NCBI GenBank assembly: GCA_030685235.1
Contig: MU839126.1
Span: forward strand, 122,031 to 186,030
Length of the DNA stretch: 64,000 bases
Source of the DNA: Copromyces sp. CBS 386.78
Taxonomy: Eukaryota; Ascomycota; Sordariomycetes; Sordariales; Sordariaceae
Direction of reading: 5' to 3'
The translations under genes and the position numbers were made by a program. Of the stretch, positions 1-38,004 are shown one piece after another. The number at the start of each line of letters is the position of its first letter. The stretch's first letter is position 1. Below the pieces are notes generated by a model. It was not told where the DNA came from. It saw only the letters and a list, made by a program, of their open reading frames with translations, and ran no database searches.

Positions 1-1775
1 CTAGTAAATTATATATATCCTTTATTATAGGCTTTTGTATTTTAATCGAAAGGTACCTCCTATTCTATAATAATTTACTATACGTTATTAGCCTAAAAAT
101 ATAAATTATACGTTACGACTAGGTAATTAGTAGGAGTTAGGACGTAAGGCTATTAGAATTAGTAAACGACGGCGCCTTCTTGCTTTTCTAATAGAATAAA
201 GGTTATAATAAATAATATAATATTTATTTTTAGGATATTAAAAGTTCGGAGCTTTTTATTAATATTAATTAGGCGACCATTGAAGTCCTTAGAAATTAAT
301 ATACTTTTATTAAATTTTCAAAAATATTAGGATAATATTTAGAAATAAATATAGTTTATTATACAACAATTAAGAATTTCTATATTTTAGAATAAAAGTG
401 CGGCGGGGTTAAAATTGGAGCCGGATATACTAATAATTAGCCTATTATTAACGTTATAGAAAATTTATTTATTAGCTTCGTATATTTCAATTACAGCTAA
501 TTAAGTACTATTACCGGCAATTTTATTATATTAATCTCTATTAGCAAATCCCGGAGTATTTTCGGCGTTAAAAACGTATAAGAATTCATATACCGAATTT
601 TTAAAAAAATTTTAGCCCCCGATTATAGACTTTTAGAAATTCTACCGGTAATTATAAAATTATATAAAGTAAATTATTATATAGAATTAATCATCAGCGT
701 TAAACTTAAATTATACATTATTTTAGGGCGCGTATTCGCTTTATTTATATTAAAGTACGCTACTATTCTTCTATTTAAATTAAGTAATTCGTAAATAAAT
801 AAATTATATTACAAATATAGTAACTTTAAAATAAATTTTATTTTTATTATCTAACGAATAAGTATTAATATTCATTAAATTGTCGTAGCGGATAGCGAGG
901 GTATAAGAGGGGAAATTAAGCGTAGTAGAAAAGTATTATAGGATATAACTATAATCCGGATAATTATATATATTAGGAATAATCTCCTTTTAATTCTTTT
1001 ATTTTAAGTTATCGACGCCGGGCTATTTATTTTTCCCGTAGTCCTATTTAATTTTAAAATACTTAAGTAGGCTAAAGATTAAAGTAATTATAGTATAGTT
1101 AGTAAATATTTAGAGTACGTCTAAATCCTATAGGGGAGAGGAACCCGCTTAGCCCCTATAGGAATTAAGCGGGAGATATATTTATATTCGTAATTAGAAT
1201 ACTAATATAAAGCCTTTGTATTAACGTAATTTAGGATACTAATTATATTAGTAAGTAGAGGGAAGATATTCTAATTTATTTATTAGCCGATAGTTTATCC
1301 GGGTAGCTTTATTTCAGTACCCTTCTTTAATTTATATAAATCGTACTAGTTTATTATTATAAATATTATTTTAATACGGGTAGTATAGTAAATCGTTCTA
1401 CCCTTTATTTACTATCCGGGCTTTTTAAACTCTAATATCGCCCTAACTACTTCTTTTATATTATATTTACTTATATAGAAGGGTAGACCGAACTTAGGGA
1501 GTAAATTGGCCGGGTTTTTAATTTAAATTTTAAATTATTTTTCGTCGGCGGCGGTTTTAATATCAGTAAACTTAAATTAATTTACCGGGGGGTGGTAAAG
1601 CTATTATAATATACTAATATCCGGCGTTTAGAAATACGTATTATTCTTAATTAAATTTAAGTTAAATACTAGCTAAGCTTTAGAAGCTTAATATAAAACT
1701 ATTTATAAAAATTAGAAGATTGTATAGAAGGGGTTATATAGTATATAAGGGGGGTATAAACTATTTTACCTTAGT

Positions 1776-2015
1776 AGGAAAGGATATAAATATTTTTAGA
1801 ATTTAAACCGCATTTAAATACAATAGGGGGCGGGAAGGGAACGAGAAAATATTATCGGAAAGGATATAAATATTTATAGAATCCGAACTACGCTTAAATA
1901 TAATAAGGGTAGGAAGGGAATAAGAAAATATTATTAGAAGGGATATAAATATTTATAGAATCCGAATTTACGTTTAAATATAATAAGGGCAGGAAGGGAA
2001 CGAGAAAATACTATT
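1776..2015. repeat. Three tandem copies of a ~79-bp unit inside the RIP block
   Basis: The string ggatataaa recurs at 1782, 1862 and 1941, each time followed by a closely similar ~79-bp unit containing aaatatt(t/a)(t/a)taga, a C/T-variable ttaaata segment, gg(g)aaggga and gagaaaata. Differences between copies are largely C/T and G/A, as expected if RIP acted on a pre-existing tandem repeat. No coding potential is seen. Confidence 0.75.
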
Positions 2016-4329
2016 AAATTCCTACGATAAAAGGCGGGGGGGAAATAAGAAAGTACAACCTAAATTATAAAAAGAAGGAAGAGGGAAGGATTTTAAAAGG
2101 GGGGGGGTTTTTATACCCGAATATATAAACTATTTACGGCTAAAAAGTTAGGGTAGAACCGGAAGTTTAGAGGAAATTTATAATAGGTTTTCGTATTTTT
2201 ATCTAATTTTATTTATCTTTTTCAACCCTTATAGGATTTAAACGAAGGAGTAGGAAACTTCGCCCGTTTATTTATTAAGGATTAAAGACCGCTTATATTT
2301 ATTTTTTCTATTTAATCAATATAGTACTAATTTTTACCCGTTTAGTTAGTAAGGCTATACTTATATATACAGTAGCGGGATAAACTACGCGCAAGTTTAG
2401 ACTTATAGCGCTAAAACCGTTACCCATAGACTTTTTTATTTATTCCGCCCTTACTAATTTCTTCTTTTCCTTACTTATATTATTACGAACTAATTTCTTT
2501 ATATTAATAATAAATACTTCTAATATAATAAGTATAAAGCGGCCGTATTCTATAATTAGTATATTATTGTACCCCCCTAATTACTTCTACAATTCGAATA
2601 CTAGAATAATTTTAATAAGATCTTAAATAGTTAAAATAAATATTTATTTCCCGAATTAATACGCAAATATATTTATAAGAATAGATATTATAAACGCCTC
2701 CTTCGGTAATTCGAATAGCCTAAATATATTAGGATAGAAGGTTTTAATTATATTTATTATAAAATAGTCTAATTCGGCTAGGGCGAAACTAACCTTCATT
2801 AATTTAATTGGGTATTAAACGGGTATTACAAATTTCTTCAATATAAGTAGTAAGAAATTTAGTAGAGGATAATATTTATTATAATATTATTATAGAAGTA
2901 TTATAATAGGACGAATACCGGTACGCTTAACGTCGAAGTTTTTTATATAAGTAAATAGACTTTTAAATTCGGGAAGTAATTTAAACTCTTATAGTAGCCT
3001 TATAGTATATAGCCTAAAGTAGTTTGCGTTAACGAATTTATATATTTCTTTATATTTATTAATATACTTTTTTCGATATAATTCTTCCATTGTAATCTAT
3101 ATACGAAGTTAGCGATTACTATTGCTAATACCTAATTCTTAAGGGATTGGACGGCCGAAGGTAGTTTTATTATTATTTAACGATTTACTTTATATATTTT
3201 CGTCCAACGTATTTTTTATATCTGATATATTTTTATTTAACGTATTTATATTAGGTAATAGAAGCAATTAGATCGGGTTATCGATTAAAGCGAAATTTAA
3301 TATAATATATTAGGTATTAACGGAAGGAAGGGCCAGGACTTTAAGGGTTTCTAACCCTAAATTATTAATATAGTTTATAGAAATATTATTAATATAAATA
3401 TTAATATTTATTATAGTAAATTTATTTAATTAACTTAAATAATTAAATTAATAATATAATATAAAGTAATACTTTGTACTATACGCGGTAGGATCCGTAC
3501 GGACGGCGCGTCCGAAATATTAAATTAAGTCTATAACGTTATTAGATTTAATTATATTATATTAAATTATATACTATACGCCCGGAATATTTATACTTAT
3601 ATTAAGTGAAATAGTAATAAGTATAATCCAATATATAGAATCTAGTCGTTTAAAGTCTTTATATATTTCCTTTTAATTTCGGGGATATATATCGGCATTG
3701 TATTTATAGATTACTTTTATTATATATAAAGGATTATAGTTAAATAATATAAAATAGTGTAAAAGGTATATTCGGGCGGAAAAAAGAAATAGTTTGGTAT
3801 TAATATAAATGATTATTTTTAGAATAAAATGGAAATTTGGTTTGGGGGCGTTAGGCGTTCGGGGGCTGAAGACGAATTTAAATTGCCCCTAATTATAGAA
3901 CCTATTTCGTAGGATTGGTTATAGTATTATAGTAATATTAGCGCAGTCGATAAAGGTACGAATAATAGTAAATTTGCTTAATTTACGACTTTTAAAGCGA
4001 AAACTATTATATTTATATAATATTGTACGTTATATATTAGTATAGTTGTATATCTAAATTAAAGAATATTAGATAGGATAATAGTTTTAATAGTATAAAT
4101 ATTTGTGAATTACTTTCGGAATTCGCGTTATTAGAATATAATATATAATTCGTTAATAATAATAAAAGTAATCTGTTAATTGAACGAAGCCTTACGTATA
4201 AATTTTATAAACTTTATATTAATAATTTATTCTAGACCGAGGAGGATATACGTATAGTTTTTAAATTTTAAATTTATTTAAAAGCGAGTATATTGTTAGG
4301 CGATTAATTAGAGTTCGTTTAAAACCGAT

Positions 4330-4355
4330 GGGGGGGGGATAACGATAACCCCCCC
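4330..4355. repeat. G9/C7 inverted repeat
   Basis: A run of nine G (4330-4338) is separated by a 10-nt AT-rich spacer from a run of seven C (4349-4355), so a G:C hairpin is possible. It stands out because the surrounding DNA is strongly AT-rich. Its origin is unknown; it may be a remnant of an element end. Confidence 0.5.
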
Positions 4356-5212
4356 TTATTAGTTTTAAAAAGAAGAGAAATTAGATTTTTATACTTTTAT
4401 AGTTAATTAATTAATTAAAATAGGCTAAGTACCTAGGTATTTTATGATAGTATTATATTATTCCTTATTAAGCCGATTAAACGGTATAATTTAGATAGTA
4501 ACTTTATTGGATAGAATAATAAATATAGTTTAGAAAATAATATTCTTACTATAATTAATTCGGGTAATAAAGATTATATCGCTTCGTTTATAAACGATAT
4601 AGTAAATATATTTAACTTGATTAAACTTTAGGCGATACTATTCCCAGTTTAATAGTAAACTTTAATTTAATATATATATAGCGACCGTATTAATAAAATT
4701 ATATTGAATTTATTTATTATTAGTAGAGGTTATATAATATAATATTTTGCTAATCTAATTTCGAAGGGTAATATTAAAAGGTTTGGACGTATTTAGCTTA
4801 TAAAAGTCGGTAATATAACGGATAAATACTATAAATTCGTCGGTATTATATTTTTAATTATTTATTATTTGTATTAAATTTCGTATTAATACGACGATAG
4901 GTTATTGAAATAGAATATATAATTTTAATTAGAGCCGTTTTGTATAAATTAAATATTATATTTACGGGGTTAGAAATTCCTATTATATAGCGGAAATATA
5001 AAAAAAAAGTATAGGAATATAAATTTATAATATGTATAATCTTTAGATATTTTATTTTATTGCGTTAGAAATTGTTATAGTTGTGTAAAATTAGAGTATT
5101 TGTCCGAAGTTAAATGGAAATTGAATATTTTTACGCAAATTTATTACTTTCGTTTAACTTTGGTATAAACGTAAACTAATATTATACTATTTAGACCCGC
5201 AGGTTTTAAGCT

Positions 5213-8200: not shown

Positions 8201-8817
8201 ACCCGCCCCGCAGGCATCATCACAGTAACAATAACGCTACCCTCAACATCGAAGCTGGTTTTCACACCGGAGTTATCCCGATCTCTGCATCACCCCATTT
8301 GCAGCACTCTTCGGCGTTCGCTCACGTGTCCCGCCTACGGCCCTCGACAAGACCTCCTTTACTCCTCGATCGGAGGCAACTTTAAGCGCCACCGAATCTC
8401 AAACTCCTCGTTAGCATACCCTCGCTGGAAAGCTTGACCAGCTCGAGCTTCCCAGGTACTTATCCAACCACGACGCATTCCACACAACCCCGGAACAATT
8501 TGGGCAATCAGCAAAAATGGGCAGCTCATAGTCCCCAGAAAGAAGTGCCCTGGGACGCTTTTGGTTCCACTGCTCGTCAACACAGAAACAAGCCCGTCCG
8601 TACCACTACCACCAACAGTAGTGCCATCACATCTTCTCCATTTCCCTCCTCCAACAGTCCACCAGACCGAAAACGTCCCGGTCAACCACGAGCCACCGTG
8701 CCGATCGATTCGAACCGCCAACCCATCTGCTACCCCCCTGCACTATTTCGTCGGTCAAACCAGCTTCCCCTGTCTCTCTTCGAGCATATCCTAGCCCTGG
8801 CCGGTTCTGGCCGTCTG
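5213..8817. other. 3.6-kb normal-composition interval with no recognisable gene
   Basis: Composition is like the genic parts of the window, but none of the short open frames (up to about 100 codons on either strand) resembles a protein I know, and no convincing spliced gene could be assembled. The right end (from about 8100) is the likely promoter and 5' leader of the phosphatase gene that follows. An open frame in phase with that gene runs from 8386 to its first ATG. The palindrome-like motif accttaag/ggtac occurs at 7581, 7918 and 7945. Confidence 0.5.
7140..7175. repeat. Four tandem copies of a 9-bp unit (gaagcactg)
   Basis: Four head-to-tail copies of gaagcactg, the last ending in c instead of g. 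It is a short minisatellite in unannotated DNA; no function is suggested. Confidence 0.85.
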
Positions 8818-10036
8818 ATGACCCACTCCGATTCCAGCGCCTCAACGCTTGTTTCGTCAACCAAGAGCGTCCTGCACCCGTCACTGCTACAATCGGAATC
8901 CATGACAGCCCTGGCTTCCATGGTAGGGGGCAACAAGGCCGTCACGAAGAGGAACACGAGAGCATTTGTTGGTGAGAAAACAGAGCAGGCCCTGCTTGGG
9001 CCTCAGTCAGAGAAAATGACAAAGGAAGATGAGAAGGCGGACGTGGAACCGCACAGAAAAGGCTCCATCGGCACATCGACAAGCCAAAGTAGCCGCTCAA
9101 GCCGCCAGACGAGCCTCGAGTGCTCACCCATGACTGCCGCGACCTCGTTGGATACGGATCTGTCAGATTTGAGCAAAGAGGAACACCTTAGCCTCCCCGA
9201 CGCACTTCGCGATGTTGAGCCTTCACATGCCGTTCAAGCGTACAGCCACAGTGCCAAAGCTCCCTTGCGGCCAAACCCTATTCTTCCACTCATTACCTCG
9301 GATGGGCGCCCCAAGAATTTCGGTGTCGTTGTCCCTGGAGTATACCGAAGTAGTTTTCCGCAGACGGAAGATTACCCGTTTATCGAGGGCCTCGGGTTGA
9401 AGACCATGGTGTAAGTTACCCGATTCGGAAACACTATTCCCCCCCCAAACGTACTGACGAGGGCTTTCCAGCACATTGGTCCAAAAGGATTTCCCCGAGG
9501 GCTATGATACTTTCCTCAGCAAGAATGGTATCAAGCATCACGTCTTCGATATGAAGGGCACCAAGAAAGAGGCAATTCCCATCACGACGATGAAGGCCAT
9601 CCTCCGGCTGGTGCTCAACACAGCCAATCACCCGCTAATGATTCACTGCAACCACGGAAAGGTAAATTATCCCTCGACGATATCTTGACTAAATGGAACG
9701 GTCAAGCTAACATTGGTTGTGCAGCATCGCACCGGCTGTGTGGTTGGAATTGTTCGCAAGACTCTTGGCTGGGACGTGAACAATATCCTCGACGAGTACC
9801 GGAGTTATGCCGAGCCTAAAGTTCGCGAGACAGATCTCAACTACATCCAGGGATTCGAAATGGCCCAAATCTCGAACCTTTTCTCCAAGGACAACACGAC
9901 GTTGGGGCGATTTGCGTCGCCCAAATTCGCCCACTCCACAGCCGTGGCCATCATTTTCTTGTTATTCTGGTATCATTTTTCCGGAATTTCGCTGCCAGCT
10001 TCGGAAGCAGTGGATCGCAAGCTGCTCACTCAGTAG
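8818..10036 (+). CDS. Siw14-type dual-specificity/inositol-pyrophosphate phosphatase with C-terminal membrane segment
   Basis: Three exons (8818-9410, 9472-9661, 9725-10036) give 364 residues. Both introns have GTA donors, CTGAC or CTAAC branch sites and AG acceptors. The phosphatase domain begins about residue 163 (GRPKNFGVV, PGVYRSSFP). The active-site loop HCNHGKHRTGC has Cys257 and spans the second intron, which fits the CX5R loop of the Siw14/Oca family. Yeast Siw14 removes a phosphate from inositol pyrophosphates; that activity is inferred here. The first 160 residues are Ser/Thr-rich and probably disordered. Residues about 332-350 (AIIFLLFWYHFSGISL) look like a single membrane anchor, unlike yeast Siw14. 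The start is the first in-frame ATG, but the frame is open back to 8386 without an ATG, so an upstream exon is possible. Confidence 0.85.
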
Positions 10037-24053: not shown

Positions 24054-27190
<3,137 letters not shown>

Positions 27191-27618
27191 AGAGAGTGCG
27201 GATGGGCGAAAAAGGGTGGTTCTTATTTGTTGTACCTGTTTAAACCGGATATACCTTTGCATGTTTGGGTGATGGTGTTTATTCGTAGCGTGGCAGCCTT
27301 ATTAGAAACAAAAAGTTGGAAATGATACCTGAACATAGAACACTTTCGAAATACCATTCTGAACATTGTCATGGGTTCTGAATTGCTGTTGGAATGTAGC
27401 CTTTTGGATGAGTGTAGGTTAAGGACGTGGGACCTTGAGACCGCCGAGATAGGCGAGGTAAACCTCAACGAAGGACGGGAGTGATAACCTACGCGATAAG
27501 CGCCATAGAGTTTGCTCCGATAAGGGAACCGGCTTTGACGTGCTACCTATGTACCTTAAAGTGTTCAAGCTCGAGAGCTTAGGCCAATTTCGGCTGAGGG
27601 TACTTGGCAGCTGGAGGA
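27191..27618. other. 3' flank of glutathione reductase up to the element boundary
   Basis: Composition is ordinary and there is no gene. A cctatgtaccttaa motif is at 27546. AT-richness rises sharply just after the inverted repeat that begins at 27619. Confidence 0.5.
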
Positions 27619-27640
27619 CCGTACTGCGAGGGAGGGGGTG
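27619..27640 (+). repeat. Left terminal inverted repeat of the 8.2-kb element
   Basis: This 22-bp sequence (ccgtactgcgag, then ggagggggtg) is matched in inverse orientation at 35781-35802 with one A/G difference. Confidence 0.75.
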
Positions 27641-28280
27641 TTACGAATTGTACTTGAACGAGTTGAAAATTTCAAATTGTTATTTAACAGTAAAATTCGT
27701 TGTGCTATTTCAAATTATAGACGTTAGTATATTAAAACGTTAGGGTGGGGTAAACGGTTAAATAACGATTCGTATTCCTAAACGTTTGAAAATCCCCGGA
27801 TATTTTGCGCGGCCAAATATCTAAGAAGTAACCCCGACATACATTTTATATAGGAAAGGTATATAGTCCGTATTTAAGCCCGAATTGCCCGCTAAAATAT
27901 ATAAATATTAGGAAGGAGCTTAAAGTTGCGCTTACCTTTTACCCCTATATTTCAATATCTTTAACAAAATTTTTACTAATATTATAACAGGATTATATAG
28001 CTGTATAAACCTAAATTTAATTCCATATAGTATAACTATTAGCATTAGTATTATCATTACTATCAATATCGTCGTCGTCGTTATAACCTCTATTACTATA
28101 ATAATATTAAATATTACCGCCCCGTTCTTCGTTATTCCTATTTTATTAATATACGTAATATCTCTCCCCGATAATAATACTATTATAATACAATTCCTCC
28201 AAGTATATATAATATTTATATATATATTTTACTATACTAATTATATAAAAAGAATATCGACCCTACTATCTTCTAAAGCA

Positions 28281-28482
28281 TATTATAGTAATAGCAATAG
28301 TAATAATAATAATAGTAGTAGTAATAGTAGCAATAGAATAAGGCCCCTACCGCCAATATAGGCCTAGCTAAGAAATCTATTAGTACCCCCCCTTCTAATT
28401 AAGCTAGAGGTAGTAAAGAAGAAGAAGAGGAAGAAAAAGAGGAAGAGGAAGAAGACGATAATAATAATAATAATAATAATAA
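28281..28482. repeat. Low-complexity trinucleotide and purine tracts
   Basis: Runs of tag/taa trinucleotides (28290-28335) are followed by a long gaagaagagg-type purine tract and an (aat)n run (28410-28480). In coding DNA the purine tract would read as Lys/Glu-rich, so it may be the remains of a charged protein segment; this is inference. Confidence 0.6.
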
Positions 28483-29760
28483 AACTTAAGTTATACGTAC
28501 CGCGTATATTAAACGCCTCGTTAAAAAGAAGAAGAGTAAGAAGATAATGGATAGCAATAAAAACGACGACGATAATAACGAAGCCGGAGTAAATAAAGGT
28601 ATAGAATAGGATAGCCATATAAAGAGGGAAGGACGCTAGAAGTACTTTCTATATAGAGAGTTAAAAAGTACCCGCTTTAACCTTTTTATTAACCGGATTT
28701 TCGGTAAGAAAATAGTAAATATAATTAAATATATTTATCTATATTAGTATTTGCTAACAATAAATATATAAAATTAAAATTCTACTATTTAGCTTAAGGT
28801 TCGCAAGTCCTTTATACGTATAAATAAGCGGTTTCAAAATAAAACTATTAATAAAGCCACTATAAATATATATTTACCTTTAAGGGATAATATATATTAA
28901 TAAATAAAAGGCCTAGACTAAATATTAGCTATCGGATATTAACCGGGCGTAAATTATAAACGTCGCTAAAATTAATAAGCCCAATATTATTAAAGCTATT
29001 AAGGATAGTTAGAATTTCAATAACTTTTAGCTAATCTACTATTATATAAAGGACTATTTAAACGCCGAAAATTCTACTATTTTAGGCAAATATTATTATA
29101 AGGGTAAATTAAGTTATTATTTATTATATAGATAGGTATATTAATATATAGTAGAAATGTGGCCTATATTAGTCTAGAGGGTTATCGAATACCTCCGTTT
29201 GTCTAAAGACCCTTAGAAGGAGGTTAGCGCTAAGAAAATACTCTTTATTAAATATAAGAAGATCCCTACGTATAAGAATTATAATAAAATTCGGCGCTAT
29301 TACTTCTTCGAAAAGACCCCTACTATTAGGGAGCTATAGATTAGAAAAGTAAAAATATATTATACTATAATAATAATATAATGTCCAATAACTAATAACT
29401 ATAATAGAGAACGAAGGCCGACGTCGAAACTATCTATACAAAAATAGATAATATTATAAACGCTCCGCCCGAAGACGATACCCCTACTCTAAGTAAGAAA
29501 AAGTAGAAGAAGGGTAAGAAAGCCGGTAGTAGTAAAAAGGGAGCGGAGAAGAGGAAGAAGACGGTCGATTTTCGTAATAATATTAATAAGATTTTTTTTT
29601 CGGATTAATAAAATATATTTTATTATTTTTCCTTTATTTTTTCTTTTTTTTATATATAATAATCTAATACCTATTTCCTTATTATATAGTATATAAATAT
29701 ATAAATTCCTTTCCCGTCGTTCTCTTTTGAAAAACAAGCTTTATTAAATTTATATATTAT

Positions 29761-30213
29761 TTAATTAAGAGAAACTCTACTCGCACGTTGATAAAACTCT
29801 ATTCGCACGTGGACCCACTTTTCATTTTTAACAATAACTCAGTCAAATATAGGTTGTATAAAGATAAAAGTAGTACCAAATTACTCGCTGATTTTTGTCG
29901 GATTTTTCATAGTAGGTACCATCCTTACAGCCTCAAGCGTTATCTAAATCCAACTTTCTTAGACTTTTCAACTTTTAATTTTCCTAATTATTTGTATATA
30001 ATAGCTTCTTTCTGTATGGTTTTCTTAGCCTACCAGTTACATACGTTCTTTAAAGAGGCAGTGTTAAATAGAGAAAAAAATAAGAAAAAATGTTATATAC
30101 TTTTTACCTCCTTATTATACTCTTTAGTACTCTAAAAAAGACATTGAAATGACCTTTTCTTCAACGTGCGAATAGAGTTTTATCAACGTGCGAGTAGAGT
30201 TGCTCTTAATTAA
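29761..30213. mobile_element. 453-bp MITE-like element with 50-bp inverted repeats, not RIP-mutated
   Basis: Positions 29761-29810 and 30164-30213 are inverted copies of the same 50-bp sequence with one mismatch. Each arm begins with the palindrome ttaattaa, which may be the target duplication or part of the repeat, and holds two tandem copies of aaactcta(c/t)tcgcacgt 22 bp apart. The 350-bp interior has many CpA and TpG steps, unlike the RIP-mutated DNA on both sides. The element therefore either arrived after RIP acted or is too short or too low-copy to be a RIP target. The only long frame (29788-30135) has no ATG at its start and no known domain, so I take the element as non-autonomous. 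It matches no named fungal MITE that I know. Confidence 0.7.
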
Positions 30214-32721
30214 TTGTAAGTAAAAAAAGGGTATAAGTTTTAATGTACTAATACTTTATAAATAGTAAATAGACGACGAAATAAATATATTTCGTATTAA
30301 TTACACTATACTTTATAAAATGAAATAAAAAAGGGAAAAATATCCGAATAAGCATTGTAATACGTACTAGAGTCTTTTAAAATATAATTATTTAATTTCA
30401 TTATAATAATTAGTATTTCGTATTTAGTTAATATAATAGCGTTTTAAAATAATATTAATAGCGTAGGTAGTAAAGTTTATAAAATCGTATTATAAATATA
30501 AAATCGTATTATAAATTTACCGTTTCGAAACTAATACCGGTTCGCCAAAATTTTATTAAGCGCCACTTACCTTCCTATCGCTAACCGCGCTTACGTATAA
30601 TAAAACTTCAATTCACTTTATATAACCTCTTCTTACCTTATAATAGCTTTACTTTGTAATAACCCCGAACTGCGCCTTATATTAATAAAGCGCATTAAAA
30701 TAGATTAATAGAAGAAGGGGCTAAAATGCTAGTCTACTTAAGTTAACGCATTTAGGTTATCGAATAAAGTACCCTGCGATCCTAAAGGTAAAGGTAAAAT
30801 TAAAGCTAAAACTAAAGGCGATAACGGCGACGGCGACGGTAGTTATATTAATTAGCTAAATTTCGTAACGGTATACTTAACGTTTATTCTATAGTGCTTA
30901 ACCTATATTAATTATCGATAAGATTTCGATAAAGCTAAGCTAGTTAAACTTATATAGTAAAAACAATAGAAAAATAACTTCGAGGATATTACTACTACTA
31001 TTGAGGAAGACCTTTTAAATACTGAAGAGCTATAGTATTTAGCCGACTACTAATTAATTAGCGAATAATACCCTATTGATAATAAAAATTTCGACGATAA
31101 TTTTAATAAGGATGTATTAATAAACTTCGATATTTATAAAGTAGTAATATTACCCGTAATTCTAAACCCTCGATAATATCTTCCTTTAAAATATATTTAT
31201 AGTACGGCTACGTATACTATAGCTTATATCCCCCCTCCCCCGCTATTTGGAAGCTCGTTTAGAAATTCTAAAAGGTAGTTATAGAATATCGTCGATGATA
31301 ATAAGTTATTACCCCGCTACCGCAACGATACGCCTCTTTCCGATTTTAAAATAGCTATAGGAATGTAGGCTTAATTAAATAGTATTTCCGAAGCAACGTA
31401 CTAAAATTTGCGGGAAATTTTATAAAAATTTACTACCGGTACATCCTCTAGGATCTAGAAGATTTATAACGAAATTACGACTCTACTTATTAGCATTTTA
31501 ACCTTTAAAAATAAAGTTAAAGAATAGATACTTATATTCGAAATACGTAAAGTACTTATCGCCTTCAACGCTAAAAAATTATCGAGTATTCGTCGTCGCT
31601 AAGCAGGCCTTTCTAATAAAGAATAAGTAGTATAAAACCTATTTTTCTTTAACGCCGTTATATATATCTACAATTTATTACGGAGCAATATATATAATAT
31701 TATATACTTTAATATAACGATACTTATCGACAATCCTTAAGAGCTATAATATTCTAAAGTATAGGCATTATTTATTAAATATATATTTAGCGATTTTCTT
31801 TAGTACTTAAATACTAATAATCTAGTATTCCTGTCCGATACCGTATTTTACTAATACTATAAAGAGGATTGCTTTACTTATAGTACCGGTACCGGCAATT
31901 AAAAATATATCGGCCGTATTACCGAAATGTAGAAGGACTATCGCGAAAATCCGTTGTTGGAAAAAGATAGTATTATCTTTAAAATTAAGCTACTATTCGG
32001 ATTCGCTAGAACCGTAGCCGGCGTTCGGCTATTATAAGGCAATACTAGTATATAAAGGATCCTAGAAAATAATAACATTATACCTAATAAGTACGTTATT
32101 ATTGAAGATAATATCGTATATATTATATCTTATTATATCGACTAAAAATATACCCAAATACACTACAATAAATTATTTAGTAGCTCTATATCGTTAAAGC
32201 GTAATAATAAACGTTGTAAATAATTAAAACGTTTTAAAGCCAATTATTTTATAAAATAGAAATATAATATAAAATTACGCCGTTTTTTCCTACTCGTTAA
32301 ATCCTACCCTATTTGGGGTAAATTCGAAATTAAAGAGTTCACTCGACTATCCCTCGTACGGATACTAATTCGAAACCCGATATTTAGGAATATTAGCGTT
32401 AACGTTCGTAGGGTACTATTAATACTTTTCGCTAATAGGTTTAATTTCTACTGTACTATAATAAAATTTATTATAGGAATATATATTTCTATTGCATTAT
32501 ATACCCGATAGGACTAGTTTAAATAAATAAATATTATACCTGTTATACTAGGCCCCTATAGATCGAATAATATTGAGGTTTAAAATTAAATCGGTAATAA
32601 TATCTGAAAATTCGAAGAGGGAAAAATCATCGATATCCCTAGAAATAACGGTAATCCTAATCGCAAAGCCTTTATATATAGCTTTATTTTCGTTATTATC
32701 GGTAATTTTCTATAGTAGTAA

Positions 32722-33520
32722 AACAATTCGGGTTTCCGGCGCCCAATAATTAAATAAGGCTATCGAATATATATTACAACGTTGGCTAATCGAAGTAACT
32801 TCAATTTCGATCTAACTAGCGGCGAGCATTAGCGATACTATTACGAAATTATTCAACAAAAGGAATATTTGTATACTTTTACCTACAAAATATATATTGA
32901 AAAGGAAGCGAATAAATTTGGTTTAGCTATTGAAGACCCGGCTTTAATAAAAATACTCCCGGTATTAAATATTATTAAAATACAGCCAATTAATTTAATA
33001 TATTCCGAATTCGGTAGTTTAATAAAAATATTATATTTATTTATTATCGACTAAGTTTTAACGCCTAAAAGTAATATTAAATATATTAAAATACTTTATT
33101 AATTTCTTTGCCTACCGGGATAGAATAATCTTCAATCGCCTTATTATATTTTATAATATATATTGCGAAAATATAAATAATAATCTACTATTATATTATT
33201 ATTTGTACGCTTATAATTAAGGTCCAATTAACAATTTATTAAAAAATATATTAATATTATACTATTCGAAATTTTCGCTAGCGAACTTCCTAATTTTAAT
33301 TTAGGCCGAAAAATAAATATAATTAATATTATCGTTAAAATATTAATCGAAAATCTAAAGGCGAATATTATCCTAACAACGGACAATATAGATCTAATAA
33401 ATTGAAAATTTAAAATTTTTAAGAAAAAGTTCAAAAAAGGCCGTTAGTATTTCCAAATATTCTATAATATTATATTTAAAATAGTAAAGGGGGGTCGAAA
33501 TCGTAGTAAGTCTATATCCG
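32722..33520 (+). pseudogene. RIP-inactivated coding relic, probably of the surrounding transposon
   Basis: One frame reads as protein-like sequence for about 265 codons. It is broken only by TAA, TAG or TGA codons where CAA, CAG, CGA or TGG would fit (for example 32755, 32830, 33052 and 33100), the stops that C-to-T and G-to-A changes produce. Readable pieces include SGFRRP, TSGEH, GLAIEDPAL, ILPVLNIIK, YSEFG and ASELPNFN. They remind me of a large family of fungal hypothetical proteins (a SEFGGLTK...LTP...FPFPPGW...QSPLHHL pattern) often found in repetitive DNA, but I cannot name its function. Upstream sequence from about 31200 may belong to the same gene. It is not functional. Confidence 0.55.
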
Positions 33521-35780
33521 TTAATAGTATTATAACTAAGGCTAATACCTAAAATATTATACTAACTATAGTTAGTAATTCGGGTATATTTAATTCTAGT
33601 CCAATAATTATAGGCGCTATTCTAATTATATAATCTGTAGAGGAAATTGAAAAAGCTAATTAAAAAATAGCCGACAATACCGAATTTCGTATAATTAAAT
33701 CTACTAAGTATAACCTTTAAATTTCAAAACCGAATATCCATATTAATTTTTACTACCCGAATATAATAAATAAATATATATTAATATCTATTATTATAGT
33801 TATAGGCTTTAAAATTAAGTATAAGTCAATATTATATTCCTATAAATAACTATCGAAATATACTAATAATATAGTTTTTTTCTCTAAGCTTTAGAAACGG
33901 GTAATATATTATACTAACTACTACGCGCCTAAAAAAGACCTCTTCCTATAGGAGGCATTCGTATAAACAATCTGGTTTATTTTACTCGGTATATATAACG
34001 ACTAAAAACCCGCTATTAATCGATAATTAAAAATATTATAATAAATAATACTGTCGTTATTCTCGTCGATTTTAGCCGGAACTAAAGAAATCCCTAATCC
34101 CTCTACCGCTACTACTATATATACTTTTCAAAATATAATATTATAAACGTCGGTACGGTTCAAATTATTAAATATACTATTCGGCGAGTATTAAAATATT
34201 AATTGTATCGGTAAATTAAAAGGGGAAATAGTTAACGAAGCTAAAATACTAATAAGAATAATACAAATAAATATAAGTTTTAAATAAATATTAATAAATA
34301 CGTATAAAAATAATTATTAAAAACAAATTATTATTATACTGCGCAATAATTAATAGTTAAAATAGTAAAAGAAAATTATATAGGATAATAAAAGGTAAAA
34401 GATTTTCCCGTATTCTAACCTATCCTTCTAAACTCCAAGCCTTTAATATATTAATACTATTACAAATTTTTAAAGTATTTAAAAGCGATAAACGCATTTA
34501 ATACTTTCTTACTATATTAGCGGTAATTATATACGAATATATATAAATAAGTAAATACTTTACCCCTTAGCCTATTAATAAATAATAAATACGTTCAAAG
34601 CCTAAATAACCCTAGTCTTTGCAAAATACTTTATATTAATAGCGCCCTCCGGACTTAATACCTAAATATTATAATTTAATTATAAAGCTAATATTAATTT
34701 AGAGTCTAATACCTACTTTACTAATACCGGAAAGCGAATTACTAAAGAGAGAGGAAACTTTATCGAATACTACGTTAGATAGGAAAATAATAGTATTAGT
34801 ATTACCTATACCCGTCTAAATTAAATTTTAATGTATAAGTCAATTTAAGGTATATATATAGTATCCTTTATACATACCCTTATCCTCCCCCGGGCTTTCG
34901 AATTCTCCCCGCCTCTCCTATAACGACCGAACGATATAACTATAATCCTATAACGTATATTTATAAAGTTCAAACTAATTTTACTAGCCTATATATTTAA
35001 TATTACTATTTTCCTCAAGTTCAAGCCACTATAAACTACTAATAAACACCTATATTATTCTAGGACTCGACTAATACCGCGTCTTCTTAATCGTATTACT
35101 AGTTATCGCCTTATATAACAGCTTTGTTAATTTACTAACGGGCCTCAACGTATATAATATAACCGAATATACTATTATAGGCCTTATATACATTATAACA
35201 ACGTTAATATATATAGTCCCGTTTAAAGAATCGATAAGTAGGGAATAGGAATATAATACAAACAGCAATTATTTATTATAGGTAGACTAGAAAATTAATT
35301 TTATATAAATTTACTAATTGCAAATATATTATATTATATTTAATATTTAACAATAGTTTTATATTTTAATTTAGCGACGTATATACGCGTTCTATCCCAT
35401 TAACCTAAGGTTCGGAGTTAAGGCGTATAGTATATAAGCGCGCAACGCCTAAGCGCGGGCGGGAGCAAAAGGGTAAAATAAAACGGGACTAAGAACTAAA
35501 TTGGTAATAGGAATTGAATCCTAACGTCTATAAAATTCAAACATTTTTACCTATAAATATCCAAATCCGGATTGTCGATAAGAATTTTATAGCCTATTCG
35601 TAGATAATTTATGGACAGTCTACCTAACCTAAACGTTTAGCTATCCCGGACGTTTGGCGGCCTTCTATCGTCCCTATATGTAAACGTTTGTAAATTTCCG
35701 ATTTGTACTTAAGCATTACGCGAATTTCAAAACGTCTCAAAAACCCAACTGTTATTTTACAGTCAATTGACAGTTCCCAG

Positions 35781-35802
35781 CACCCCCCCCCTCGCAGTAC
35801 GG
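35781..35802 (-). repeat. Right terminal inverted repeat of the 8.2-kb element
   Basis: This is the inverted copy of 27619-27640 (cacccccccc, then ctcgcagtacgg). The DNA just inside (35700-35780) keeps more CpA steps than the interior, so RIP was lighter at this end. Confidence 0.75.
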
Positions 35803-36241
35803 GAATGGGAGATGGCAAGAGGACCCATTTGCAGCGTGCAAGTACCGGTATGGCGAGCCTTTTCAACCTGATGCGCAAATGGTCATACCACCACAATAGA
35901 TGGCCTGCGACTGGCCAGGCCCGACACCCACCATGCGCAGCTGCCAGACCTGTGCGGCCAGCTGAGACAGCCGAGCTTATTCCCAATTCCGAACGTCAAG
36001 ATTCCGCACTAGCGTCACGGACCACCACGGGCAGCTCCTCCAGTTTCATCACCACACTCCAAGTGCTTTCCCACCCTCGACTCTCCCTGACACCAGCTTC
36101 TGACCGAGCAAGGAATCGCCAAATCTCCACTCAAGGTATGCCGTTCTCCTTGCGATACCACTCTGCAGCTCCCCTCAAGCTCTGCCCCTTTGAATTCATT
36201 CGGAAAGCTGACTGCGTGTGAATTGCTTTGCGAGAAAAAAG
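35803..36241. other. Promoter and leader of the COX8/COX7C gene
   Basis: Ordinary composition returns right after the inverted repeat. A 172-codon open frame at 35703-36221 crosses the element boundary, has no domain and is judged accidental. The insertion sits about 440 bp upstream of the COX8 start codon. Confidence 0.5.
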
Positions 36242-36567
36242 ATGTTCTCCCGTGTTGCCCTCCGCGCGGCTCCCCGCCAGCAGCCCTTCAGCCTCGTTGC
36301 TCGCCGCACCTTCCAGACCACCCGCGCCCAGCTCTCGTCGCCCTACCACTACCCCGAGGGTCCCCGCTCCAACCTTCCCTTCAACACTAAGACCCGCTTC
36401 TTCTGGTTCCGTTACCTCATGTACTGCGTCGTCGGCTTTGGTACTCCCTTTGGCATTGCCGGTGCGTGATATTATCCCTGTCCGAGAGAGCGAAAAGTAT
36501 ACGGTCCCACTGACGTAATCTGGTTCCAACCACAACAGTCTGGCAGACCTACCGCCCCCGCGCTTAA
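36242..36567 (+). CDS. cox8: Cytochrome c oxidase subunit COX8 (COX7C family)
   Basis: Exons 36242-36461 and 36539-36567 (77-bp intron, CTGAC branch) give 82 residues. The first ~30 residues (MFSRVALRAAPRQQPF..., then RRTFQTTRAQ) form a mitochondrial presequence. The mature part starts near SSPYHYPEGPRSNLPFN. Then come the conserved FFWFRYLMYCVVGFGTPFGI, with one membrane span, and the end AVWQTYRPRA. This is the small nuclear-encoded subunit of complex IV called Cox8 in yeast and COX7C in animals; it stabilises the complex in the inner mitochondrial membrane. The second exon codes only nine residues and would be missed by a simple ORF search. All expected parts are present. Confidence 0.93.
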
Positions 36568-38004
36568 ACGGCTTGCTACTAGCTGTTATGCGGGTGTGCC
36601 AATATGGTCGGGAAGTGTTGAGCGGGCCGATGAGCTTGATGCGTGCGTAATAAGGGGGAGGGGGAATATACCGAAAGGGGGGAAACGTAAAGAAACCGAC
36701 CGGCACGGATATAGACGCAGGTAGTCCGGACTGTCCGGGCGCTCTTCTGTATATGATACGACACGAATAGAAACCACCATCATCATCAACCCCGACGTTT
36801 TTCTCTTTTTTGGACCCTCCGAAAACCAATGGCTCTGGCAAACCTTTTGACTCCGATAAGGGGAAGATGGATGGTGGCAGTGGGTGCTGGGGCTCTTCTC
36901 GTTGAAGCTGTGATTACGGATGGAAAAAACGCTGGTTTGGATGAAGTCTGGCGCGGGACGACCTAGGAGTTATTGACTCCTTCGACCAAATGCTGCGAGG
37001 TAAGCAAGCTGCGTAGTCCACCATCACCTGATTGTGTCTCTATGCAGTGACGCTTTGGTAGGTCTGCTCAGATAGGCGTTTTCGGAAAAGCACTCCAGGT
37101 TGAAAAAGCGGTGCTTCTGACCTCGCTACTGCTCCGGTACAACTTTGAAGCTCACATACGCGACTTCGAGAAGAACGGCAATCGTGCGAGCTCAAGGATG
37201 TAGCTTCATGCTCAGGTTTTCAGGGTATCGCTGCCAGTAGCTTCCTGGTCAACTGCTCGTAGTCACGACACCCAAAGAAATGAAAACCTCCCCCACTCCA
37301 GTTATGCGCATGATATCTCGATCTTGGTAGCAGATGGGGGCGACGAGTTGGGCACCGGAGGACAAGACGGTAGCTATAGCAATCAAAGAGAACCAAAGTA
37401 AACAAAGCCCCTGGACCGGATGGTCCTCGGCACAGTCAACCTATGTTTCACAGGATACCGCCATCGTTACAGTAAGTTTGCAGATATGCAGCTATGCGCA
37501 CAAGCCAATCGGCCAGCTTCCGTTTTCCCGTGTAAATGCATTCCGTGTACTTTGCGCCAGAGCAAAGCGAAGGTACCCGCACCCTTTTAGAGCTCATCCC
37601 CTGTCTGTTAGTGCCAGGTACCTTACTCGTCAGGGTCCGCTTGGGTACCTGCGACGCCGCCGGTTCCCCCCAAAGATCACAACGTCAACCGCCATTCCAT
37701 TCCACCTGCCAGGAGCAGGAGCCGCCACAAAACACCAACACCAACACTAGACTACACTACCACCAACCATCACCACGGGACACCGAGTAGCCAAGAGACC
37801 AACATCCGCATCTTCTTAAAACTGGCGACGGGAACCACACTGAACACATTGCGCGACATGGTATGAGGTGAAGCGAACATGCAGACTTGCCGTCCAGGCA
37901 ATACGCTACACGGATCACGGAAGACGACGTCAAGGAGAAGCACAACATATCCAACAACCAACTTTCCACCATCACGCCGATAATACACATACTCACACAC
38001 CAAG
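36568..38004. other. Intergenic 1.4 kb upstream of sec6
   Basis: No protein-like frame is recognised; the 138-codon frame at 37334-37750 is Arg/Pro-rich without a domain. Motifs aggtaccttac (37616) and gggtacct (37642) are present. The last 250 bp are rich in CCA and CAC and form the sec6 leader. Confidence 0.5.

Follow-up and report, generated by a model that had tools for sequence, protein, structure and literature searches.

A dead, probably cut-and-paste DNA transposon of Copromyces with a predicted RAG1/Transib-fold, Plavaka-like transposase and a BAH-like insert

According to Kojima 2025 (PMC12730594), PlavakaA elements have TGT..ACA termini and a 2-bp target duplication, PlavakaB elements have CATCA..TGATG termini and a 2-3-bp duplication, and fungal EnSpm elements have CAC..GTG termini and a 3-bp duplication, the Plavaka families of its section 20 coming from Agaricomycotina. 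In animals, the TRC elements (CACTA group; e.g. SmTRC1) show a 2-bp duplication and CC-rich ends beginning CCC (PMC1636069). In the present study we have analysed a stretch of 64,000 nucleotides of Copromyces sp. CBS 386.78 (contig MU839126.1, positions 122,031 to 186,030; hereafter the window), in which an AT-rich block at positions 27619-35802 is very probably the dead remnant of a DNA transposon of the cut-and-paste type. The element probably had two genes, one of them for a Plavaka-like transposase of the CMCT clade with a RAG1/Transib fold and an extra BAH-like domain ahead of its RNase H domain.

The block is bounded by inverted copies of 22 bp with one mismatch, the arms of which can be extended to 33 nt at 85% and which coincide with both of its edges (Table 1). 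The GC content is 0.21-0.32 inside (500-bp windows, 28001-35500), 0.49-0.59 over 26501-27500 on the left side and 0.53-0.58 over 36001-37000 on the right (two 500-bp windows each), with intermediate values in both windows that straddle an edge. The repeat search and these windows confirm what the initial annotation had stated of the repeat and its position, and the block is also, as claimed there, destroyed by repeat-induced point mutation (RIP): TpA/ApT is 1.31 in the element versus 0.67 over 28 kb on its right side, and (CpA+TpG)/(ApC+GpT) is 0.35 versus 1.20, those 28 kb being free of the RIP signature. When the 9.5-kb region was shuffled 100 times with its dinucleotides preserved, one shuffle contained a comparable pair of repeats at least 2 kb apart, so that the 22-bp repeat alone is only moderately unlikely by chance and no more than suggestive.

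What makes the repeat decisive as an element boundary is its distribution in the genome (49.8 Mb, 273 contigs), where the end 21-mer was found at 18 places with up to 3 mismatches and the reversed 21-mer, used as control, at none. All but one of these places, which lies on contig C83, fall in nine paired elements (17/18), one being pieced together from two contigs and one having its second end from a looser scan; widespread unpaired occurrence, which would have spoken against an element, was not seen. The nine share the ends 5'-CCGTACTG..CAGTACGG-3', with 5'-CCG..CGG-3' as outermost letters in 9/9, the end sequence of the element being CCGTACTGSGAGG. Directly outside these ends every insertion carries a 2-bp direct duplication (GA, TA, AC, GA, AA, GT, GG, CA and AA), and since each match has a chance of 1 in 16, nine chance matches are out of the question. 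In a scan of boundary against duplication length, 9/9 agreement was obtained at the 5'-CCGTACTG..CAGTACGG-3' boundary with length 2, and the other cells with 9/9 consist of fixed letters of the repeat. Thus the 22-bp repeat marks the exact ends of a single DNA transposon, which starts at CCGTACTG and not at TACTG as first proposed. A reading in which the element targets a palindromic CCGTACGG site and always duplicates TA or GTAC was considered and rejected: the fixed letters at the inner boundaries also match in 9/9, but the varying outer dinucleotide, which matches likewise in 9/9, is left unexplained by a fixed duplication. The 18 flanking stretches of 100 bp have a GC content of 0.33-0.61 and give nothing firm on targeting.

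The nine elements comprise three long copies and six short elements of 0.9-1.2 kb. The copy on contig C56 is full-length (7,747 bp) and 75% identical to that of the window, as computed with a nested 453-bp element removed from the latter, transitions being three times as common as transversions. Two partial copies, on C264 and C216, each stop shortly after a piece like the end of the nested element (75-77% over 57-73 bp), and because both stop at the same internal position (window 28866-28876) they are read as the two halves of a third long copy. The initial annotation had proposed to look for less-mutated full-length copies with the same ends; all three long copies bear RIP-type mutations, and the catalytic pattern is degraded in each. 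Five of the short elements measure 1,066-1,194 bp, are 80-85% identical to each other and are similar to the long copies around the ends and over a few short stretches besides; the sixth, of 898 bp, has a right end beyond the mismatch limit, is 45-47% like the other five and shares a single 60-bp internal match with the long copies. The ends of short elements and long copies differ by one base, CTGGGAGG against CTGCGAGG. One short element, L052, bears few traces of RIP and is perhaps young.

The coding relic lies in a long broken frame beginning near 30,640. With five related proteins (P0001-P0005) as tblastn queries its main part gave strong matches at 30988-34326 and a weak one at 34675-34845 (E 0.004), and the read-through product is 32% identical to P0001, from Parahypoxylon, over 1,208 BLASTP columns. 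A further piece in another frame, matched by P0002, P0003 and P0005 (E 3e-05, 0.001 and 0.004), weakly by P0001 (E 1.5) and in tblastn not by P0004, is, from these matches, probably the last exon after an intron. Judged by its relatives, the intact transposase would have had about 1,280 amino acids.

As a query, the relic at first retrieved one protein, P0001, which itself retrieved 12 including itself, and a profile search extended these to 53 at E<=1e-5 (7,991 scored). The named hosts, which we take to be Ascomycota, include Xylaria, Jackrogersella, Poronia, Trichoderma, Aspergillus, Thermomyces, Morchella and Coccidioides, and the relatives with a source name are annotated as hypothetical or uncharacterized proteins. 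Alignments of the relatives reveal a conserved D-D-E, C(2)C and H(3)H pattern, exemplified in P0010 by D425, D511, C530, C533, H833, H837 and E857. In P0010 the second Asp and the first Cys lie 19 residues apart, and the second His and Glu 20, spacings that equal those of RAG1. The predicted models show a RAG1/Transib fold across the entire catalytic core. The initial annotation could name no transposase for this relic; on the predicted models it can be recognised as a DDE transposase. Stop codons are present in each of the 29 stretches of the host genome that match the transposase (best 33 of 37 candidates scored).

Distant RIP-broken relatives were also observed in the same genome (L016-L039 except L024 and L028, on C82, C57, C59, C183, C13, C75, C164, C43 and others), and eight such relatives examined showed no clear paired ends. 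At L044 on C164, inverted repeats of up to 89 nt (~629-1500 and 8390-8907) surround a transposase relative and perhaps mark another large element.

The element shares traits with several known systems. With RAG1, BbRAGL (ProtoRAG) and Transib it has in common the predicted fold of the whole catalytic core and the C(2)C and H(3)H motifs between the second Asp and Glu; it differs in the BAH-like domain ahead of the RNase H domain, in an identity of only ~10% and, presumably, in the duplication, which we take to be 5 bp in Transib and RAG against 2 bp here. Subterminal sites of the type present near the ends are typical of CACTA elements, and such sites together with the probable two-gene layout we take as traits of CACTA/EnSpm. 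The 2-bp duplication and CC-rich ends are, moreover, like those given for the animal TRC elements (PMC1636069). However, the CAC..GTG ends and 3-bp duplication given for fungal EnSpm (PMC12730594) are absent, on which grounds EnSpm was rejected, and Transposase_21 appeared neither in the Pfam scan of P0001 (E<=10) nor among the families matched by 49 relatives (E<=0.1). KDZ (Zisupton) was likewise rejected, its 8-bp duplication being at variance with the 2 bp of 9/9 insertions. The nearest known kind is Plavaka: the transposase is of CMCT type, the duplication is that of PlavakaA, and the Plavaka domain PF18759 was matched in 8 of 49 scanned relatives at E<=0.1 (a precomputed Pfam domain, Plavaka, being present on 1 of the 53). 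The score of P0017 is 29.3 bits against a cut-off of 26.3, those of P0010, P0024, P0033 and P0034 lie below the cut-off, and P0006, P0013, P0016 and P0020 gave no match to this domain. In the five relatives for which they were located, the matches are confined to ~115-130 residues past the second Asp, and the ends of the element are neither of the two Plavaka types cited above. We consider the element as probably an undescribed variant within the DDE transposons of the CMCT clade.

That the repeat arose by chance and the block is merely a RIP-mutated patch could appeal to the single comparable pair among the shuffles, but it is refuted by the nine elements whose paired ends agree and which each carry a 2-bp duplication, leaving a negligible probability. 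The founding of a new DNA transposon superfamily, akin to the new element class that had been thought possible, is highly improbable. It would agree with the lack of any Pfam match above cut-off in the relic, and of any at E<=10 in P0001, and with the literature matches listed, among which, for the sources as far as consulted, no described family has exactly these ends, as the initial annotation had already supposed. The predicted RAG1/Transib fold of the whole core and the CMCT motif set of the relatives, with their PF18759 matches, largely refute it. An ordinary Plavaka in ascomycete form, with ends and an additional domain that a collection such as Repbase already lists, is rather unlikely: the PlavakaA-like duplication and the PF18759 matches, one above cut-off in the tables seen, speak for it, and the CCG..CGG ends and the short reach of the located matches speak against. 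Neither these ends nor a BAH domain in a transposase occurred among the literature matches listed, Repbase and most subscription literature lying outside that scope.

The insert that precedes the RNase H domain (model residues 257-460) has a predicted fold of BAH type, and the transposase seems to carry an extra chromatin-reading module. At the sequence level PF01426 was not matched in P0001, in the scan of 49 relatives or in the relatives scanned individually, and hhalign of the inserted domain against four host BAH sequences only gave a probability of 0.4%, reached by 4 of 40 shuffles. The alternative that the insert is an unrelated beta-barrel particular to these transposases is unlikely but deserves serious weight. 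We hold only tentatively, at somewhat short of an even chance, that we are dealing with an undescribed RAG1-fold transposon lineage, widespread in Ascomycota, in which a BAH domain that reads chromatin forms part of the transposase and precedes its catalytic domain. The integrases of some retrotransposons are guided by chromodomains, an analogy for such a role. If true, the BAH domain could make the element favour or shun particular chromatin states at cutting and insertion, in genomes that silence and mutate repeats. By title, none of the papers naming both "BAH domain" and "transposase" reports a BAH-bearing transposase; in the part consulted of a paper on fungal elements (PMC4352252) BAH domains belong to DNA methyltransferases, and "BAH" does not occur in the main text of PMC12730594 as far as consulted. 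In the host genome, two BAH matches below the Pfam cut-off were observed in a gene at C3:534349-535011 (L056/L057). We take this gene, by eye, to be a DIM-2-type DNA methyltransferase lookalike.

In the mechanism that we propose, the transposase would have bound the ends and the subterminal repeats, and the element would have been excised by a RAG1/Transib-like chemistry, followed by an insertion with a 2-bp stagger between the target strands and little preference as to sequence. Having retained the ends, the short elements may have been mobilised in trans by the same transposase or a close relative, and the BAH-like domain may have contacted nucleosomes at excision or insertion, biasing the insertion site. 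The long copies, on becoming repeated, would then have been destroyed by RIP.

Table 1. Features of the element (positions in the window unless a contig is named)
Feature	Position	Strand	Remarks
Left target site duplication copy	27617..27618	.	GA (2 bp)
Left terminal inverted repeat	27619..27640	+	5'-CCGTACTGCGAGGGAGGGGGTG; same end in long copies L008 (C56) and L010
Left subterminal repeats	27720..27787	+	AAACGT / AACGTY type
ORF1 relic, near left end	28701..29390	+ (listed)	strand and frame uncertain
Nested MITE-like element	29761..30213	.	453 bp, 53-nt inverted repeats; separate from the large transposon
Transposase relic, main part	30988..34845	+	single frame, many stops; true start further upstream
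RAG1-like core of transposase relic (predicted)	31339..34053	+	model residues 134-1038; BAH-like insert within
BAH-like domain ahead of RNase H domain (predicted)	31708..32319	+	model residues 257-460
First catalytic Asp codon	32434..32436	+	now Asn
Second catalytic Asp codon	32704..32706	+	now Asn
Catalytic Glu codon	33811..33813	+	now Lys
Last part of transposase relic	35057..35287	+	other frame
Right subterminal repeats	35523..35771	-	AAACGT / AACGTY, GTYAAWTGAC
Right terminal inverted repeat	35781..35802	-	...CAGTACGG-3'
Right target site duplication copy	35803..35804	.	GA (2 bp)
Short elements L048-L053	contigs C8, C64, C69, C99, C129, C159		898-1194 bp; same ends and 2-bp duplications

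The subterminal motifs, picked after inspection of the ends, are enriched there over shuffles and over the interior (AAACGT, AACGTY and GTYAAWTGAC): AAACGT occurs 66 times in the 18 element ends (400 bp each) versus a mean of 10.6 and a maximum of 19 in 50 shuffles, and GTYAAWTGAC is absent from six of the 18. The ORF1 read-through matches the three long copies only (5 candidates scored); it gave no match in PDB and none in Pfam above cut-off, and comparison of its frames singled out neither strand. The idea of one large transposon with terminal inverted repeats, borne out by the ends common to the long copies, has to be amended in that the block also holds the nested element (MITE, miniature inverted-repeat transposable element). 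This element has no match at the corresponding place in the C56 copy and is younger than its host transposon. It has 40 near-full-length genome matches, including the window's own (best 40 of 147 candidates scored), and because the next-best of these is 99% identical it was probably recently active. Contigs C264 and C216 were seen to end in sequence resembling its ends. The neighbours are those initially named. On the left, 428 bp separate the element from the end of a gene for a pyridine nucleotide-disulphide oxidoreductase that resembles glutathione reductase in sequence; on the right, a gene for a cytochrome c oxidase subunit (Pfam COX7C, which we take to be COX8 in fungi) begins 439 bp beyond the element. 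A second AT-rich block at window positions 1-5000 (GC 0.21-0.31) is probably a further RIP-mutated element.

RAG1 rearranges the antibody genes of vertebrates, and its transposon relatives inform the origin of V(D)J recombination; the branch described here, from fungi, is predicted to share the catalytic core of RAG1. Relatives with uninterrupted reading frames exist in several sequenced non-model fungi, and this branch is therefore open to experiment. For annotators, the end sequence, the 2-bp duplication and the short derivatives are means of identifying this family despite the nearly unreadable state of its RIP-mutated long copies. Furthermore, if the BAH-like domain is real, a BAH histone reader forming part of a transposase would be seen here for the first time within the literature searched, and would offer a direct route to ask whether cut-and-paste elements sense chromatin.
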